NCBI RefSeq assembly: GCF_019924635.1
Contig: NZ_CP065037.1
Coordinates: forward strand, 62,001-126,000
From: Leifsonia sp. ZF2019
GTDB lineage: Bacteria; Actinomycetota; Actinomycetes; Actinomycetales; Microbacteriaceae
Reading direction: 5' to 3'
Length of the DNA stretch: 64,000 bases
The notes under the pieces were generated by a model. The model was not told the origin of the DNA, did no database searches, and saw only the letters and a program-made list of their open reading frames with translations. Of the stretch, positions 22,307 to 30,117 are shown in pieces; the stretch's first letter is position 1; each line of letters starts with the position of its first letter. The translations under genes were made by a program, and so were the position numbers.

Positions 22307-23500
22307 ATGCCCGCTGGCCTGATCGCCCTCGCACTCGGGGGTTTCGGCATCGGCCTCACCGAGTTCGTCATCGCCGGGCTGCTGCCCGAGGTCGCCGCCG
22401 ATTTCCACGTCGACGAGGCCACCGCCGGATGGCTCATCTCCGGCTACGCGCTCGCGGTCGCGGTCGGCGCGATCGCGCTCACGGCCGCAGCGACCCGGAT
22501 CCCGCGCAAGGCCGCTCTGCTCGGCCTCATGGTGCTCTTCATCGCGGGCAATCTGATGTCGGCGCTCGCCCCGACCTACGGTGTCATGCTCGGCGGCCGC
22601 ATCGTCGCCGCCCTCTGCCACGGTGCCTTCTTCGGCATCGGATCGGTCGTCGCGGCCGGTCTCGTCGCACCGGAGAAGCGCGCGAGCGCCATCGCGATCA
22701 TGTTCACCGGGCTCACCGCGGCGAACGTCCTCGGCGTGCCGCTGGGCACCCTGCTCGGCCAGGCGGCCGGCTGGCGATCCACCTTCTGGGCGATCACGGG
22801 CATCGGCGTGCTCGCCCTGATCGGCGTGGCCGTGCTCGTCCCGCGGGAGGACGCCGACACTGCGGCGCCCGGCCTCCGGCGCGAGCTCGGCGCGTTCCGC
22901 TCCGGGCAGGTCTGGCTCTCGCTCGCCGCGACGGTGCTGGGCTTCGGCGGGATGTTCGGCGCCTTCACCTACATCGCGTACACACTCATCGGTGTCTCGG
23001 GCTTCGCGTCCGGCGCGGTCCCGTGGCTGCTCATCCTGTTCGGGCTCGGGCTCTTCGCCGGCAATGCGGTCGGCGGGCGGCTCGCGGACCGCTCCATCGA
23101 TCGGACCCTGCTGGTGCTCCTCGCCGTGCTCGCCCTGGTGCTCATCGCCTTCGCCCTCGTCGCCGGGATGCCCGTCCCGGCGGTGATCGCCCTCGTGCTC
23201 ATGGGCGCCGCGGGCTTCGCGACCGTGCCCGCCCTGCAGCTGCGGGTGCTGACCTACGCCGATCACGCGCCCACCCTCGCCTCGGGCGCCAACATCGCCG
23301 CCTTCAACGTGGGCAATGCGCTCGGCGCCTGGCTCGGCGGGCTCACCATCGCGGCCGGCCTGGGGTACACCTCGCCGCTGTGGGTCGGCGCCGGGATGAC
23401 CGTCGCCGCACTCCTGGTCGTCGCAGTGGCGGCCGGAGCGGCGAACCGGGCCTCCCGCCGGTCATCGCTCACGACCTCGGAAGAATCCCTTCCGGTCTAG
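22307..23500 (+). CDS. MFS transporter, DHA1 (AraJ/Cml-like)
   Basis: Twelve-span transporter of 397 residues. Span 1 GFGIGLTEFVIAGLLPEVA and the following ATAGWLISGYALAVAVGA are typical of the sugar-efflux/chloramphenicol-exporter branch. Later motifs include GRIVAALCHGAFFGIGS and NAVGGRLADRSIDR. The start ATG at 22307 matches the family; the frame stays open upstream but that part is antisense to marR. It is probably controlled by the divergent MarR. The exported substrate is unknown. Confidence 0.87.
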   Translation: MPAGLIALALGGFGIGLTEFVIAGLLPEVAADFHVDEATAGWLISGYALAVAVGAIALTAAATRIPRKAALLGLMVLFIAGNLMSALAPTYGVMLGGRIVAALCHGAFFGIGSVVAAGLVAPEKRASAIAIMFTGLTAANVLGVPLGTLLGQAAGWRSTFWAITGIGVLALIGVAVLVPREDADTAAPGLRRELGAFRSGQVWLSLAATVLGFGGMFGAFTYIAYTLIGVSGFASGAVPWLLILFGLGLFAGNAVGGRLADRSIDRTLLVLLAVLALVLIAFALVAGMPVPAVIALVLMGAAGFATVPALQLRVLTYADHAPTLASGANIAAFNVGNALGAWLGGLTIAAGLGYTSPLWVGAGMTVAALLVVAVAAGAANRASRRSSLTTSEESLPV

Positions 23501-23586
23501 TAGACGACGGCGTACACTCGACCTCGTCTCGAACGGACCAGACGAACCGGAAGTGCTCGGAACCTGACGATCAGGGGGTGATCGTG

Positions 23587-24594
23587 ATGGATGCAGCAGC
23601 AGAGGACCTGCTCCCATCGCGGCCTCCTGTCCTCCGGGTGATCCTCGGTTCGCTCCTCGGCGGAGCCGGTCTGGTCGCCCTCGGGCTGTTGTTCGGCGGA
23701 GGCTCCGCGCACGCCGACGATGCGACGCCCCCTCCGCCTCCGGCCGCCGCGTCGTCCGGGCTGGGCGGGGTCGTCTCCGGCCTGACGAGCGGACTCGGTG
23801 ACGTGGTCTCCGGCGTGACGAGCGGGCTCGGCCAGACGGTCGATGCTGCGACGTCGACTGTCGCTCCGGTGCTCCCGGAGCCCGTGCAGCAAGCCGTCTC
23901 GGCGGTCGTGACCCCGGTCGCCTCCGCCGTCTCGGACGTGGCCGCAGCGGACCCCGTGTCCACCGTGGTCCAGCCCGTCGCTTCGGCGGTCGACACGGCC
24001 GTCTCCTCCACCCCGGTCGTCGGCGACGTCGTGACCGGGCTCGTCGGGAGCGGCACACCGGTCCAGTCGGTCACCGCGCCCGTCACCGGCCTCGTGGACC
24101 AGACGGTGACCGGCATCGCGGGCGTCGTGACCGACTCCGTCGCGCCGTTGGCGCCGGGTACGTCGACCCCTCCGGTCGTCTCCCTCCCCGGCCTTCCGGG
24201 AGCGGGAGGCCAGGCCGTCCCGACCATCTCCGCGGCGGCTCAAGCGGCCCTCGCTGCGGCGGCCTCCGATGCGACCGACGGCCGCTCTGTCACTGGTCTG
24301 TCCGGCCTTCCCCTGCTCTCCGGTCACGCGGGCGCCACCGGTGCGTCTTCCTCCGGCGGAGCGTCCGCTCCTGGACCGGTCGCGCCCGGCGATCCGCGGC
24401 CAGACGGCCAGGCTCCTCCCGGCGTGCCCTCGGGCAGCGCGGGAGGCGGATCCGGCACACCCGGTCCCGCGGTCGCGGCAATCGCGGACGGCTCCGCCCT
24501 GCCCGGGCGCGCTCTCGGGGTCGCCGCCGCGTCTTCTTCGGACGACCGAATTCCGGCGTCCCCCGTCGCCGACCACGACACCAGCCCCGACTGA
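23587..24594 (+). CDS. Low-complexity exported protein upstream of chaplin-like gene
   Basis: Exported protein of about 335 residues. After a polar start comes the hydrophobic signal VILGSLLGGAGLVALGLLFG and a cleavage-like site GSAHADD. The mature part is Ser/Val/Pro/Gly-rich with amphipathic repeats (GLTSGLGDVVSGVTSGLG; PVQQAVSAVV, PVASAVSDVA, PVASAVDTAV) and then a Gly/Pro/Ser region. It has no LPxTG-like signal, no second span and no cysteine. The start may be GTG 23578, GTG 23584 or ATG 23587. It ends 82 bases before the chaplin-like gene, so the two are probably one surface operon. Confidence 0.65.
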   Translation: MDAAAEDLLPSRPPVLRVILGSLLGGAGLVALGLLFGGGSAHADDATPPPPPAAASSGLGGVVSGLTSGLGDVVSGVTSGLGQTVDAATSTVAPVLPEPVQQAVSAVVTPVASAVSDVAAADPVSTVVQPVASAVDTAVSSTPVVGDVVTGLVGSGTPVQSVTAPVTGLVDQTVTGIAGVVTDSVAPLAPGTSTPPVVSLPGLPGAGGQAVPTISAAAQAALAAAASDATDGRSVTGLSGLPLLSGHAGATGASSSGGASAPGPVAPGDPRPDGQAPPGVPSGSAGGGSGTPGPAVAAIADGSALPGRALGVAAASSSDDRIPASPVADHDTSPD

Positions 24595-24676
24595 GTGGGT
24601 CTCGTCTGCCTGCGGGCAGAACGCGACCATGCCTCCCGAGCGGAGGCGCATCGACACTCATTCGAAAGGCTGAATC

Positions 24677-26377
24677 ATGAACAAGTACGTTTCGCGAGGG
24701 TTGTGGATCACCCTCTGCGCCGGCGGCCTGTGGCTGGCGGGCACTGCGGCGGCGAACGCCGCGGAGGCCCCGTCCGCAGACAGCGCCGGCTCCGGCGGCG
24801 CCCAAGCGCTCGTCGGACTCTCCGTGCCGGTCACTCTCTCCGGCGACGGCATCTCGGTCGTGGGCGACTCCTCGTCCGCGTCGTCCGCCTCCAGCACCCC
24901 GGCTCCCGCCCCGGCGCCGTCCGCCACGATCGACCCGTCCGCTGTCGGCGGCATCCTCGACGGCACGCAGGCGGTGGCCGATGTGTCCGTCCCCGTCACG
25001 GTCACGGGCAACGCGGTCAGCGTGGTCGGTGACGCGGGCAGCGCGGACTCGGCAGCCACGGCCCCCGCGGCTGCTCCGGCTCCCGCCGCGACGGCCACCG
25101 CATCCGGCGGCTCCGGCGACGGCCTGCTCGGCGACGTGCAGGCCCCCGTCTCCGCCGCGGTGCCCGTCACTGTCGGCGGCAACGCGATCAGTGTGCTGGG
25201 TGACTCGTCGTCGACGGGCTCGGCGGCGTCGGCTCCGGCTGCCTCCGGGTCCGGGCCGTCGGCATCGGCGACGGGCGCCGGCTCCTCGGACGGCGGCCTG
25301 CTCGGCGCCATCCAGGCCCCGGTGGATGCGGCGGCCCCGGTGACGGCGGGCGGCAACGCGATCAGTGTGCTGGGTGACTCGTCGTCGACGGGTGCGGCCA
25401 CCTCGGTTCCGGCCGGGTCCGGTTCGGGCGCGTCAGCCACCGCGGGTTCCGCCTCCGGCGGGACCGGCTCGGGTCTGCTCGGTGACGTGCAGGCGGTTGT
25501 GGGCGCGGACGCTCCCGTGACGGCGGGCGGCAACGCGATCAGTGTGTTGGGTGACTCGTCGTCGACGGGCTCGGCGGTGTCGGCTCCGGCTGCCTCCGGG
25601 TCCGGGCCGTCGGCATCGGCGACCGGCGCCGGCTCCTCGGACGGCGGCCTGCTCGGCGCCATCCAGGCCCCGGTGGATGCGGCGGTCCCGGTGACGGCGG
25701 GCGGCAACGCGATCAGCGTCGTGGGTGACTCGACGTCGACCGGTTCCTCGACCACCGCGCCGGCGACCGGCGGCACGACGGCCACCGGGAACGGCTCCGA
25801 CGGCGGCCTGCTCGGCAGCGGCATCCAGCTTCCGATCGATGCGGGAGTTCCGGTGACGGCCGGCGGCAACGCAGTGAGCGTCGTGGGCGACTCGTCCAGC
25901 GACTCCTCCACCGTGGTGGCCCCGGCGACGGGTGGCACCACGGCGACGGGAGGGGGCACCGACCCGGGCACGGGGCTGCTCGGCGGCCTGCTCCCCGTCG
26001 AGGCGCCGGTCGGACTGGATGTGCCGGTGACCATCGGCGGCAACGCGATCAGCGTGATCGGCGACAGCGGGACGACGGGATCGACCTCGACCCCGACCAC
26101 TCCCACCACCCCGACGACGCCGACCACACCCACCACCCCGACGACACCCTCGACCCCGGCCACCCCGGGTGACGGCACCGTCATCGGCGCGGCGGGAACG
26201 ATGCCCGCCTCGGCCGGCGCGGTGGTGGCCCTCGGCACCGGCGGCTCGGCGATGCTCGCGTCGACGGGAACCAACGAACTGGCCCTCGGCGCCCTCGCGG
26301 CGCTGCTCGCCCTTCTCGGAGTGATGGCGCTCTTCACGGCGGCCAGCCGCGAGCGTCGGCACCACCGCACGCGGTAG
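24677..26377 (+). CDS. Wall-anchored protein with eight chaplin-like repeats and LASTG signal
   Basis: Surface protein of 566 residues. A signal peptide of about 29 residues ends at ANAAEA. Eight repeats follow, each with a core like VPVTVGGNAISVLGDSSS preceded by LLGxxQAPV. This matches the chaplin domain of Streptomyces (VQxPVxVPVNVCGNxVxVIG) but without its cysteines. Spacers are Ser/Gly/Ala/Thr-rich. A Thr-Pro run of about 25 residues leads to MLASTGTNE, a membrane span and a basic tail (SRERRHHRTR), that is an LAxTG signal for a class E sortase. Long chaplins are anchored the same way. The repeats probably form a hydrophobic or fibrillar surface layer; that is inference. Confidence 0.8.
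   Translation: MNKYVSRGLWITLCAGGLWLAGTAAANAAEAPSADSAGSGGAQALVGLSVPVTLSGDGISVVGDSSSASSASSTPAPAPAPSATIDPSAVGGILDGTQAVADVSVPVTVTGNAVSVVGDAGSADSAATAPAAAPAPAATATASGGSGDGLLGDVQAPVSAAVPVTVGGNAISVLGDSSSTGSAASAPAASGSGPSASATGAGSSDGGLLGAIQAPVDAAAPVTAGGNAISVLGDSSSTGAATSVPAGSGSGASATAGSASGGTGSGLLGDVQAVVGADAPVTAGGNAISVLGDSSSTGSAVSAPAASGSGPSASATGAGSSDGGLLGAIQAPVDAAVPVTAGGNAISVVGDSTSTGSSTTAPATGGTTATGNGSDGGLLGSGIQLPIDAGVPVTAGGNAVSVVGDSSSDSSTVVAPATGGTTATGGGTDPGTGLLGGLLPVEAPVGLDVPVTIGGNAISVIGDSGTTGSTSTPTTPTTPTTPTTPTTPTTPSTPATPGDGTVIGAAGTMPASAGAVVALGTGGSAMLASTGTNELALGALAALLALLGVMALFTAASRERRHHRTR
25177..25740 (+). repeat. 351-bp internal duplication in the chaplin-like gene
   Basis: Two adjacent chaplin-like units have been copied together: the marker AACGCGATCAG occurs at 25181, 25355, 25532 and 25706, so units 3-4 and 5-6 are offset by exactly 351 bases. 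Long stretches between 25196-25395 and 25547-25735 are nearly identical at DNA level, indicating a recent duplication. Confidence 0.85.
26085..26165 (+). repeat. Thr-Pro coding tandem repeat
   Basis: Repeated ACC-ACN-CCN codons encode a TPTTPTTP run that spans the cell wall before the LASTG sorting signal. Confidence 0.8.
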
Positions 26378-26495: not shown

Positions 26496-26882
26496 ATGAA
26501 CAGCCTGCGCCGCGTCCGCGCCACCCGCCCCGTCCGTGCCGCTCTCGCCTTCGCCGCGGTCGCTGCGGTGATCGCGCTGAGCGGATGCTCCTCCTCGGCG
26601 TCGTCCTTCACGGGGACGTGGGGCTCGACGGCCGCGGGGCAGCCTCATCTGACGATCCAGGACGACGGGACGTTCAGCGGCAACGACGGCTGCAACGACC
26701 TGTCGGGCAAGGGGACGGTGAGCGGCGACACGTTCACGTTCGGCCCGTTCGCGTCGACGCTGAAGGCCTGCGAAGGCGTCAACCCGTGGCTGAACATCGC
26801 AGTCACGGCGAAGGTTTCGGGCGATGAGCTGGTCGTCTACAAGAACGGCGGAGGCAAGATCGGCACGCTCGCCAAGGGCTGA
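26496..26882 (+). CDS. META (HslJ-like) domain lipoprotein
   Basis: Surface lipoprotein of 128 residues. The signal peptide ends in the lipobox LSGC (Cys31). The rest is a META-like domain: FTGTWGS, then DDGTFSGNDGCNDLSGKGTV and FGPFASTLKAC, with the Cys pair and GNDGCN turn typical of HslJ-type domains. META domains are linked to stress or antibiotic tolerance in other bacteria, but the molecular role is unclear. The gene stands alone after the chaplin-like gene. Confidence 0.78.
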   Translation: MNSLRRVRATRPVRAALAFAAVAAVIALSGCSSSASSFTGTWGSTAAGQPHLTIQDDGTFSGNDGCNDLSGKGTVSGDTFTFGPFASTLKACEGVNPWLNIAVTAKVSGDELVVYKNGGGKIGTLAKG

Positions 26883-27386: not shown

Positions 27387-28445
27387 TCAGCGAGAGAGGC
27401 GCTCGACGATGGAGCCGAACAGCTCGGGTCGCGCGACGGCCGTGGGCACGATGCGGGGGCGGAAGGGCGACCGCGCGGCGAGGACGAGCGCGGAGGTCAG
27501 CATCCGGAAGTCCCTCGTCGTCGCGCGCCAGGCCCGTTCGTACTGAGTGGTGTCGCCCGCGCGCACGGCGGCGACCGCGGCGCGCGCCTGCGCGAACCCG
27601 ACGCGCATCCCCTCCCCGGTGAGTGCGTCGACGTAGCCGGAGGCGTCTCCCGCCAGCAGCACCCGCCCCGACGCGCGCGACCGGGCGCGCTGCAGCAGCG
27701 GCCCAGCCCCGCGCGTCGGTCCCAGCTGCAGGGCGCCCTCCAGTCGCGCGGCGAGATCCGGGAGCGAGGCGAGCACAGCGTCCTGGTCGAGGGGCCGCCG
27801 ACCGAGCACGGCGACGCCGACGGTCCGGGCGTCGACGGGGGTCACGTACGCCTCCGCCTCCGGAGACCAGTGCACCTCGACGAGATCCGTCCAGGGCTCG
27901 ACGGCGTAGTGGCGGCGCACCCCGAACCGGCGCCGGCTCTCCGCCTGCGGCCGGTGGTCGAGGCCGAGCAGGCGCCGCACGGGGGAGTGGAGGCCGTCGG
28001 CTGCGATCACCCACGGCGCCTCGACCGCGCCGCCGCCGGCCAGTTCGAGGCGCACGCCGTCGCGCCGCTGCGCGAGTGCGCTGACCCGGCCCCTCAGCCT
28101 CCGGGCGCCTCGTTCGTCCGCACGGAGCGCGAGGGCGTCGTGCAGCACCGTGCGCCGCACCCCGCGGCCGGGACGCGCGGCGAACCGGTGCTCCACCCGT
28201 GCGTCGCCGCGGACGTACGCGATGCCGGCGAGCGGGCTGCCCGGCGGGTCGACGCCGATGCGGTCCAGGGCCGCCAGTGCGCCGGGCATCAGCCCTTCGC
28301 CGCACGCCTTGTCGATCGGGCCGTCGCGCGGCTCGATCACCAGCACCTCCATGCCGTGGAGGCGCGCCTCGATGGCGCAGGCGAGCCCCACGGGTCCGCC
28401 GCCGACGACGATCAGGTCGGCATCGCCCCGCGGGGCGCCGCTCAT
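27387..28445 (-). CDS. FAD-dependent hydroxylase (SrsC-like, geranylgeranyl reductase fold)
   Basis: Flavoprotein of 352 residues. It opens with the dinucleotide-binding motif DLIVVGGGPVGLACAIEARL and the following IEPRDGPIDKACGEGLMPG, then has the DG motif WVIAADGLHSPVRR and the late FAD motif VLLAGDASGYVDALTGEGM. This is the aromatic hydroxylase / geranylgeranyl reductase group. Its place as third gene after a type III PKS and a carboxyl/O-methyltransferase-like protein matches srsA-srsB-srsC of Streptomyces griseus, where SrsC hydroxylates alkylresorcinols to quinones. The ATG at 28445 overlaps the methyltransferase stop by 4 bases. Confidence 0.8.
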   Translation of the reverse strand: MSGAPRGDADLIVVGGGPVGLACAIEARLHGMEVLVIEPRDGPIDKACGEGLMPGALAALDRIGVDPPGSPLAGIAYVRGDARVEHRFAARPGRGVRRTVLHDALALRADERGARRLRGRVSALAQRRDGVRLELAGGGAVEAPWVIAADGLHSPVRRLLGLDHRPQAESRRRFGVRRHYAVEPWTDLVEVHWSPEAEAYVTPVDARTVGVAVLGRRPLDQDAVLASLPDLAARLEGALQLGPTRGAGPLLQRARSRASGRVLLAGDASGYVDALTGEGMRVGFAQARAAVAAVRAGDTTQYERAWRATTRDFRMLTSALVLAARSPFRPRIVPTAVARPELFGSIVERLSR

Positions 28446-28966
28446 GCGCGAGCGGGCAGGACGGTCGCCAGCGCGCGGTCCTCGCACGGGATGCGCACGG
28501 CGAGCAGGAGCACGGCGTTCAGGACGGTGAAGGCGATCGCCGTGATCCACGCGGTGTGCACCAGCGGCAGGGCGAAACCCTCGACAACGACGGCGACGTA
28601 GTTCGGGTGCTTCAGCCACCGGTACGGTCCGCTCGCCACGAGCGGCAGGTCGCGCACGATGATCACGCGCGTGTTCCAGCGGGGCCCCAGCGCGGCGATG
28701 CACCACCAGCGCAGCGCCTGGCTGGCCAGCACCAGCGCGAGCATCGGCCAGCCCAGCCAGGGCAGGAAGGGGCGGTCGCCGAACCAGACCTCTGCGAGGC
28801 AGGCGAGCAGGAGGCCGGTGTGCAGCGCCACCATCGGGGGAAAGTGGCCGCGCCCGAACTCCACACCGCCGCGCGCGAACGACCAGCGCGCGTTGCGGGC
28901 CGAGACGACCAGCTCGGCGATGCGCTCGCCACCGGTGGCGAGCACGAGCACCGTGTACCAGATCAC
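28442..28966 (-). CDS. Isoprenylcysteine methyltransferase-like membrane methyltransferase (SrsB-like)
   Basis: Membrane methyltransferase of 174 residues with four or five spans. The ICMT/PEMT family signature is near the C terminus: GPYRWLKHPNYVAVVVEG, followed by RIPCEDRAL. In srs-type clusters such proteins O-methylate alkylresorcinols. The GTG at 28966 sits in a GTGA overlap with the end of the PKS gene, and its stop overlaps the start of the FAD hydroxylase (ATGA), so all three are coupled. Confidence 0.82.
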   Translation of the reverse strand: MIWYTVLVLATGGERIAELVVSARNARWSFARGGVEFGRGHFPPMVALHTGLLLACLAEVWFGDRPFLPWLGWPMLALVLASQALRWWCIAALGPRWNTRVIIVRDLPLVASGPYRWLKHPNYVAVVVEGFALPLVHTAWITAIAFTVLNAVLLLAVRIPCEDRALATVLPARA

Positions 28967-30065
28967 GCTGCGACACCGAGGGGCTCGGGGACACGCGGGG
29001 CGCCGTCCGCCCAGCGGAGCAGGACGAGCTCGCTCGTCACCCCCGGTCCGAGCGCGAACAGGAGGCCGACCGTGCCGGGATCGTGCGCATCCAGCTGCTC
29101 GGCGAGAACGTGCAGCACCGCGGCCGACGAGAGGTTGCCCACCCGCGCCAGCGACCGCCAGCTCGCGTCGAGCGCCCCCTCGGGCAGGTCGAGCGCCTGG
29201 GCGAACGCCTCCAGCACCTTCGGGCCGCCGGGATGCGCGGCCCACGCGCCCACGTCGCTCACCTCGAGGTCGTGCGCGGCGAGGATCCCGCGGCGTCCCC
29301 GGCGAAATTCCGCTCGATCACGTCGGGCACGCCCGCGCTCAGCACGATGCGGAACCCCGTGCCTCCGATGTCCCAGCCGATCACGTCGGCGGTGTCGGGA
29401 TAGATGCGGCTGCGGGTGTCGACGACCTCCGGCCCGGCGATCCCGAGCGTCAGCGCCCGCTCGTCTCCGACCATCACGACCGCGGCCGCACCGTCGCCGA
29501 AGAGGCCGCTGGCGACGATGTTGGCCATCGAGTCGTCGGCCGCCTGCACGGTCAGCGAGCAGAGCTCGACCGAGAGCAGCACCGCGACCTCCCCCGGATG
29601 CCCGGCCAGGTAGTCGTGCACGCGCGCGATGCCGGCGGCTCCGGCGACGCAGCCCAGTCCGAAGCTCGGCAGGCGCTTGACATCGGGCCGCAGCCCCAGA
29701 CGCGAGACCAGCTGGGCGTCGATCGACGGGGCCGCGATGCCGGTGACCGAGGTGAAGAGCAGGAAGTCGACATCGGCCGGCTGCAGCCCCGCCGAGACCA
29801 GCGCGCCGGTCACCGCCTGCTCGGCCAGCGTCGTCCCCTCGGCGATGAAGAAGTCGTTGGACTCCTGGAACGAGGCGAGCGAGCTGTACCGCTCCAGCGG
29901 CATGACCAGGCTGCGCGTCTCGACCCCGCTGGCCGCGTGGATGCGCCGCATGACGGCCTGGCGCTGCGGGTCCGGGGTGATCATCCCCAGCAGCGCGGTC
30001 GTGATCTCCTGCTGGGGGTAGCTGCGGGCCGGGAGCACCGGCGCCACCGACACGATTCGGCTCAC
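28963..30065 (-). pseudogene. Type III polyketide synthase (alkylresorcinol synthase type), frameshifted
   Basis: Chalcone-synthase-fold enzyme expected to make alkylresorcinols or pyrones from fatty acyl and malonyl-CoA. The first frame covers about 260 residues, with the catalytic Cys in SFGLGCVAGAAG and WDIGGTGFRIVLSAGVP. It then runs into a stop at 29259. The rest, with the catalytic His (AAHPGGPKVL) and Asn (RVGNLSSAAVL), lies in another frame down to 28963. Adding one base to the C4 run at 29297-29300 restores a single full-length protein. The end overlaps the next gene in GTGA as intact operons do. Either a recent mutation or a sequencing error. Start GTG 30065; GTG/ATG-type starts up to 30089 are possible. 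Confidence 0.82.
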
Positions 30066-30117
30066 ACGCGCAACGTACACCCGGCGCACGCCCCACGACG
30101 ACGGCTCACGGCCGCCT

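Follow-up and report, generated by a model that had tools for sequence, protein, structure and literature searches.

A chaplin-derived wall protein and its previously unannotated upstream neighbour as a probable two-gene surface module in Leifsonia

In a 64,000-nucleotide stretch of the Leifsonia sp. ZF2019 genome (RefSeq assembly GCF_019924635.1, contig NZ_CP065037.1, positions 62,001 to 126,000; this whole stretch is what we call the window), two neighbouring forward-strand genes, SPD (23587–24594, 335 residues) and CHP (24677–26377, ATG start, 566 residues), probably constitute a surface module in which a chaplin-derived wall protein is translationally coupled to the gene before it. Computation provides the architecture of CHP, its relation to chaplins, the pairing of the two genes across genomes and, in the Microbacteriaceae group of loci, covariation of an RNA helix that joins the end of SPD to the ribosome-binding region of CHP. 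A first-pass annotation of the window had presented CHP as a chaplin-like wall protein; that reading is partly borne out, and it missed both the RNA pairing and the upstream gene that is conserved along with CHP.

Chaplins are the hydrophobic amyloid coat of aerial hyphae; the family to which the window belongs is mostly non-filamentous, and we know of no aerial hyphae in this lineage. What did chaplin motifs do before, or besides, aerial growth? A cysteine-free, multi-copy, wall-anchored form lets one ask this question. SPD and its covarying helix in turn offer a testable handle on surface-layer expression and a marker for chaplin-like loci that fall under the Pfam cut-off. A search of the open literature, with subscription journals mostly outside its reach, found no paper on the RNA element, on the SPD gene or on cysteine-free multi-repeat chaplins of Microbacteriaceae.

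Architecture of CHP and its kinship with chaplins

CHP opens with a signal peptide (residues 1–29, 24677–24763, placed by eye) that is strongly conserved within the genus and, to the eye, resembles those of chaplins. There follows an array of eight units of 54–59 residues (24785–26083), the PVT of whose cores begins at nucleotides 24827, 24992, 25163, 25337, 25514, 25688, 25850 and 26024; then come a Thr-Pro run (residues 470–497, 26084–26167), presumably a wall-spanning spacer, and a sorting signal identified from sequence and model (26255–26374), which comprises LASTG (residues 527–531, 26255–26269), a membrane span with a helix predicted at residues 534–564, and a basic tail. All of these lie on the forward strand, and the Thr-Pro run and the C-terminal signal are as first described. 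The core pattern PVT..G[ND].[IV]SV.GD matches eight times, from residues 51, 106, 163, 221, 280, 338, 392 and 450, at spacings of 54–59 residues; it matched in none of 2000 residue shuffles, and thus eight matches are far above chance. The 35-residue units share a mean identity of 60%, with the core consensus PVTxxGNxISVxGD. The first-pass annotation had counted eight repeats correctly, and its wording of them, a core VPVTxGGNAISVxGDS preceded by QAPV, was slightly too strict: GGN stands in six of the eight units (unit 1 has SGD, unit 2 TGN), QAPV in three, and A replaces V before PVT in units 4 and 5. It had also called the protein cysteine-free, which is true of mature CHP because the sole cysteine, residue 14, lies within the signal peptide as placed by eye.

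A PF04203 search found a single sortase gene in the genome (C1:16627-17022, outside the window), and its product is of class E (NF033747, 245 bits, cut-off 160), so that the class E sortase sought elsewhere in the genome was found. CHP thereby shows both marks of a long chaplin's anchorage, an LAxTG signal (here LASTG) and a class E sortase in the same genome; the two agree, and CHP may well be covalently anchored. The Streptomyces long chaplins ChpA–C (PF03777) resemble CHP in this sortase and also in signal peptide, repeated VQxPVxVPVxVxGNxVxVxG motif, spacer and LAxTG; CHP differs from them in that it has eight units where they have two, its mature form is cysteine-free, and its units lack the LLNPAFGNxC half.

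The relation to chaplins emerges at the level of profiles. A profile built from the eight CHP units alone retrieves Streptomyces-type chaplins among 2531 open reading frames (ORFs) of fetched loci, partly picked for chaplins. Compared by hhalign with 21 chaplin domains, taken from genomes inferred to be Streptomyces, a repeat profile of 300 of 978 repeats, mostly those of relatives, gave a probability of 95.4% (one-template E 1.6e-8, 26 columns), and 30 column-shuffled control profiles gave at most 7% each. At E <= 1, PF03777 matches 13 of 14 aligned sequences, CHP among them (best 7e-18), and relatives in genomes G324, G313 and G053 score over the PF03777 cut-off. When 296 genomes were sampled evenly across the phylum, PF03777 matched in 11: eight are of one genus, which we take to be Streptomyces, with 6 to 15 matches each that mostly cover nearly the whole domain; the other three, two of them from the window's family, match only up to domain position 45 of 57. 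In one PF03777-positive genome the chaplin domain GVLSGNVVQAPIHVPVNVCGNTISVIG aligns with GLLGDVQAPVSAAVPVTVGGNAISVLG in CHP, and a Ser/Thr/Ala linker in the CHP units replaces the LLNPAFGNxC half of the chaplin domain. As far as these alignments tell, each CHP unit is the front half of a chaplin domain with the cysteines gone.

What should such a protein be called? The Streptomyces-type definition includes three GN motifs 12–13 residues apart (PMC13251363). CHP lacks that spacing, having one core GN or GD per unit and one extra GN in the linker before unit 7, and it lacks the two conserved cysteines per domain that mark Streptomyces-type chaplins. We accordingly file CHP, from its sequence, as a chaplin-derived protein and deny it strict chaplin status because it lacks both cysteines and has only one of the three GN motifs.

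CHP homologues number 213 proteins at E <= 0.001. Among the 120 listed matches, the nearest named relatives are Leifsonia, and we recognise most of the other named genera as Microbacteriaceae, in agreement with the claim that the protein belongs to a non-streptomycete; several are named chaplin family protein, DUF320 or Chaplin domain-containing, so the databases already know this kind of wall protein as a chaplin. The first-pass annotation had further held that cysteine loss and copy number set CHP apart, and this did not survive comparison, both traits being common among its relatives. None of the 154 relatives with at least two cores (a set that includes CHP itself and three copies of one locus, and that a cysteine-free query may have tilted towards cysteine-free proteins) has a cysteine where Streptomyces chaplins have their first one, and these sequences carry 4 to 11 cores, with 13 in L098. 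Within the window's family, CHP occurs in 58 of 199 genomes at E <= 1e-20; at E <= 0.001 the tally rises to 111 genomes, but some of these matches involve nothing beyond the sorting signal. A tblastn search against the plasmids of PLSDB matched none, and NCBIfam gave just a weak match, to the Thr-Pro run.

The upstream gene SPD and the RNA helix at its end

The N-terminus of SPD carries a hydrophobic export signal; the middle, rich in Val, Pro and Ala, is predicted to be helical, and the disordered second half ends in DHDTSPD. Pfam gave no match to SPD and nothing in NCBIfam passed its cut-off (scanned from 23542, in frame), and Pfam on 20 of its relatives gave one weak match; a profile search with the SPD alignment A1 returned 10 proteins among 7994 scored candidates, eight ending SPD and two SPG, which makes the gene hard to find by sequence. 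Without prior annotation, it is the usual neighbour upstream of CHP homologues. A gene ending in PD lies directly upstream on the same strand in 83 of 86 loci with upstream DNA (6 of the 83 assigned by inspection), and the final Asp is invariant in these 83; of the other three, two upstream genes end TTPG (Pro-Gly) and one has its tail in a broken frame. The loci, 87 in all with one per genome, the window's included and one beginning at a contig edge, were fetched from the stronger matches rather than drawn at random, and those in G053 and G059 belong to other families of the order. Across 20 long context regions, 20 of the 1191 closed ORFs of at least 150 residues end in PD, one per region, and all are the partners. 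SPD and CHP occur together in 25 of 27 same-genus genomes; the other two, G017 and G022 (2.6 and 2.7 Mb), are without both genes, in what looks like joint loss with genome reduction. In three SPD-like proteins, P0246-P0248, an apparent membrane span (by eye) stands shortly before the SPD tail and would leave the tail on the inner side.

The end of SPD and the start of CHP are also predicted to pair as RNA. The element (24582–24672, forward strand) encloses two inner hairpins and has a helix in three parts: CAGCC (24582–24586) with GGCUG (24668–24672), CGA (24588–24590) with UCG (24662–24664), and UGAGUG (24592–24597), from the SPD stop codon, with CACUCA (24655–24660). The putative CHP Shine-Dalgarno sequence, AAAGG (24665–24669), has its GG within the predicted helix, and the fold of 108 nucleotides at the element has a z-score of -5.3. 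Rfam, searched over 23400–24800, gave two matches, both far under their gathering scores.

Covariation across loci supports this helix. A redundancy filter at 70% kept 57 of 83 Microbacteriaceae-group loci and 13 of 23 Streptosporangiaceae loci; in the former, the segment from -14 to +12 around the stop paired with the last 42 nucleotides before CHP at -23.6 kcal/mol for own and -17.3 kcal/mol for cross-locus partners, a gap that none of 2000 permutations equalled. Control windows 12 nucleotides further on or 16–28 nucleotides before were flat (1419 and 853 of 2000 permutations). In a separate duplex test, the window from 12 nucleotides before the stop, planned as a control, was positive (own -10.6, cross -6.9), which places the last SPD codons in the helix; two further controls in that test gave no signal. 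When ungapped Watson-Crick matches were counted, none of 5000 permutations reached the observed value for either arm, and the paired bases switch type jointly, at +3 among G-C, C-G and T-A and at +4 among T-A, G-C and C-G. A stop-anchored complement of 6 base pairs joins the two arms of the same locus in 39 of 83 cases (7.0 of 25 when weighted by type) and the arms of different loci in 34 of 1992; an unanchored test gave a weak difference (own 6.65, cross 5.77) because same-genus loci share both arms. At least three of the four Shine-Dalgarno bases are paired in 43 of 56 loci, a count that leans towards pairing because the duplex program picked the pairs. With 38 intergenic regions aligned by MAFFT, the named helix has 71% of its cells paired, versus 34-42% when it is slid.

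Codon choice points the same way. The penultimate SPD codon, for Pro (24586–24588 here), is CCC or CCT in 83 of 83 Microbacteriaceae-group loci; CCG makes up 751 of the 1600 Pro codons in the last 150 codons of these genes, and the conserved Pro at -13 is CCG in 41 of 80. Pairing with the CHP ribosome-binding region seems to explain this bias. We gave up a purely protein-level explanation of the tail's conservation once codon bias and pairing emerged, and set aside a frameshift at CCC since CCT stands there in many loci. We read the helix in this group as a device for translational coupling: with the SPD end and stop paired to the Shine-Dalgarno region, a ribosome finishing SPD should open the site, so in the cell it would melt the helix and free the CHP Shine-Dalgarno sequence, and SPD and CHP would be made in fixed order and ratio.

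The amino acids of SPD are conserved past the helix as well, with a Pro at -13 that uses all four codons and Asp at -16 and -17, and this bears on a further proposal, compatible with coupling, that SPD acts as a SecM-like regulatory nascent chain whose tail stalls the ribosome near the stop according to export state and so sets the Shine-Dalgarno sequence open or closed. We consider it improbable. SPD does have three of the features by which Sakiyama et al. searched for such proteins (an N-terminal export signal, a conserved C-terminus and > 40 residues between them; PMC7897499), and, as for secM-secA, the downstream Shine-Dalgarno sequence lies in RNA structure; the ApcA/ApdA arrest-peptide operons likewise have an exported upstream protein with a conserved C-terminus. 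However, at 335 residues SPD exceeds the 80-200 of that search, a helical middle is predicted for it, the next gene encodes a surface protein and no export machinery, no known arrest motif was seen in SPD by eye, arrest by SPD is hypothetical, and simple coupling explains the codon bias. There is only a slim chance that SPD is a secretion-sensing leader whose C-terminus acts in the ribosome and whose helix ties coat output to export state; if true, SecM-like control would have been carried from the export machinery to a surface coat, in a chaplin system outside aerial hyphae.

A comparable pair exists in Streptosporangiaceae (family assigned from homologue names: Microbispora, Planotetraspora, Nonomuraea, Streptosporangium), where multi-repeat chaplin-like proteins with CGN cysteines follow a gene ending DDPSFSPD. 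An SPD homologue occurs in 22 of 61 genomes of that family, at 27 loci made up of 22 genes and five second pieces, and at all 27 the next same-strand ORF matches a loose chaplin pattern twice or more; 119 of the 120 homologues listed, of 291 found, end SPD. Like CHP, the proteins L123, L124, L126, L128, L130-L132 and L134 have several repeats (by pattern, 5-7 in seven of them and 2 in L126) and an upstream gene ending SPD; unlike CHP, they have the CGN cysteines, and no LAxTG was found with their C-terminal span. The complement of the last two SPD codons occurs in 16 of 23 intergenic regions here, where mononucleotide shuffles lead one to expect 1.7 (4 of the 27 loci, with no start found, were left out of the pairing tests). 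The penultimate Pro codon is CCT in 22 of 27 loci, and CCT makes up 63 of 426 nearby Pro codons; pairing explains the bias at this codon in the Microbacteriaceae group only. A profile comparison of the two SPD groups was weak (31%, 21 columns), and the shared tail may reflect chance or convergence rather than common origin.

This second family bears on another role for SPD, also compatible with coupling: it might be mainly a protein partner of CHP, an assembly factor in a rodlin-like role whose tail docks on the repeats, with the RNA pairing secondary. The similar layout in Streptosporangiaceae, with an S/TPD tail and a chaplin-like ORF after every locus, speaks for such a role, as do the near-universal SPD ending and the invariant final Asp; the two SPD groups compare weakly, however, and the tail is unstructured in the model. 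We regard it as a serious possibility, though one we would not bet on.

At 26 Streptomyces-type chaplin loci (flanks of about 1.5 kb) no SPD stands beside the chaplin gene, in contrast to CHP; one of the 447 closed ORFs of at least 100 residues there ends S/TPD, and it is unlike SPD. A search of 41 genomes of a Streptomyces-like genus for the Streptosporangiaceae-type SPD came up empty, which says little because the profile came from a distant group. A second multi-repeat chaplin type with CGN repeats and an LPVTG/AVTG anchor was seen in a Streptosporangiaceae-like family (L133, L135-L143); none of these ten loci shows an SPD gene upstream, L135 having little upstream DNA. Two loci, L127 and L129, were left unclassed.

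The proposed surface layer and what weighs against it

In the module as we picture it, SPD and CHP would both be exported, CHP by way of its signal peptide; the class E sortase would cut CHP at LASTG and link it to peptidoglycan, the Thr-Pro run would span the wall, and the eight chaplin front halves would project from it. Prediction makes every copy, with modest confidence, a short beta unit centred on a Gly-Asn turn. By analogy with chaplins, the units together may form or tether a surface layer that is beta-rich and mildly hydrophobic, perhaps aided by SPD, with attachment rather than aerial growth as its likely role. CHP would then be the coat or adhesin that the first-pass annotation had imagined. 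Chandra and Chater suggest that attachment may be the older chaplin role and report chaplin-like genes in a non-sporulating Arthrobacter (PMC4255298). ChpE, which forms amyloid fibrils in vitro, and reduced chaplins show that chaplin fibrils do not depend on cysteines there (PMC3079736), so the missing cysteines of CHP do not rule out assembly. Like CHP, ChpE and the C-terminal domain of ChpB have no cysteine pair (PMC3079736, PMC13251363); ChpE is a single short secreted domain rather than an anchored array of the kind proposed for CHP, and ChpB has two domains. CwpA/CwpB of Actinoplanes missouriensis, like CHP as proposed here, are hydrophobic proteins of a non-Streptomyces species anchored by class E sortase, but unlike CHP they have no chaplin domain, according to their authors (PMC13251363).

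Several results pull the other way, and we set them side by side here. CHP itself scores 11.8 bits against PF03777 (E 0.22) and does not reach the gathering cut-off of 21, and a PF03777 search of its own genome gave no match, missing CHP too; the same search, with that blind spot, found no short chaplins in the genome. The profile search once proposed as a check on the chaplin claim thus came out divided, with CHP under the Pfam threshold and a profile of its own units finding Streptomyces-type chaplins. The AlphaFold model of CHP (14 sequences) has a mean predicted local distance difference test score (pLDDT) of 54 and a predicted template modelling score (pTM) of 0.47, that of SPD 57 and 0.27, and Foldseek of the CHP model against the PDB returned four matches, none significant (best E 3.6); with low confidence and no significant PDB match, no fold supports or excludes a chaplin-like assembly. 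Mature CHP is acidic (isoelectric point 4.05) and its hydrophobicity is mild (grand average of hydropathy 0.36). On the RNA side, RNAalifold found no consensus structure in the alignment of 38 intergenic regions, a null that we read as due to misaligned 3' arms, and letter shuffles of the same alignment left a modest excess (paired cells 10 of 500, covariation score 20 of 500). The putative pairing does not covary in Streptosporangiaceae (1958 of 2000 permutations over 13 loci), and L145 and L149 have changed codons without a compensating change.

Could the chaplin likeness be convergence on a short Val/Pro/Gly-Asn motif? The sub-threshold Pfam score and the shortness of the profile alignment would suit such an origin. 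Against it, the column-shuffled controls fail, relatives pass the PF03777 cut-off, the signal peptide, order of parts and LAxTG all fit long chaplins, and multi-repeat forms with cysteines exist in Streptosporangiaceae. We judge convergence very improbable and retain a chaplin-derived CHP, its kinship resting on profiles.

A plain wall-anchored adhesin or spacer is a more credible competitor, if still an unlikely one. Here the chaplin motif would be ancestral and the units, having lost the cysteines and the LLNPAFGNxC half, would no longer self-assemble; the array would be a long stalk that serves to bind a ligand or as a spacer from the wall. The acidity of the mature protein, the disordered linkers of a low-confidence model and a copy number that varies among relatives as in stalk proteins all fit. 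The core motif, however, is tightly kept over many genera while the linkers vary, and Pfam and NCBIfam recognise no ligand-binding domain. We continue to prefer a layer-forming CHP coupled to SPD. A structure prediction of one repeat had been suggested at the outset; run on the whole of CHP, it leaves the fold undecided either way, with ten-residue blocks at the cores mostly at pLDDT 70-77, about three short strands in most units, and low confidence at the Thr-Pro run, the region before LASTG and most linkers. Tan et al. describe predicted long chaplins as disordered stretches with a few beta clusters (PMC13251363), a likeness to the CHP model that proves nothing.

Neighbouring genes

The surroundings of the pair are partly constant within the genus. 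The same major facilitator superfamily (MFS) transporter gene lies upstream in 14 of 15 same-genus context regions, and 14 of 15 also hold, nearby, a small gene for a ParB-C-like domain, followed by genes for a flavin adenine dinucleotide (FAD) enzyme, an ICMT and a type III polyketide synthase. Directly downstream of CHP, a META-domain lipoprotein gene (26496–26882, forward strand) recurs in only 4 of 20 context regions, which places it outside the SPD-CHP module. On the reverse strand, a FAD-dependent oxidoreductase, an ICMT-type methyltransferase and a type III polyketide synthase stand in a row (27387–30089), as they do in 14 of 20 context regions, and are likely a small polyketide/quinone cluster.

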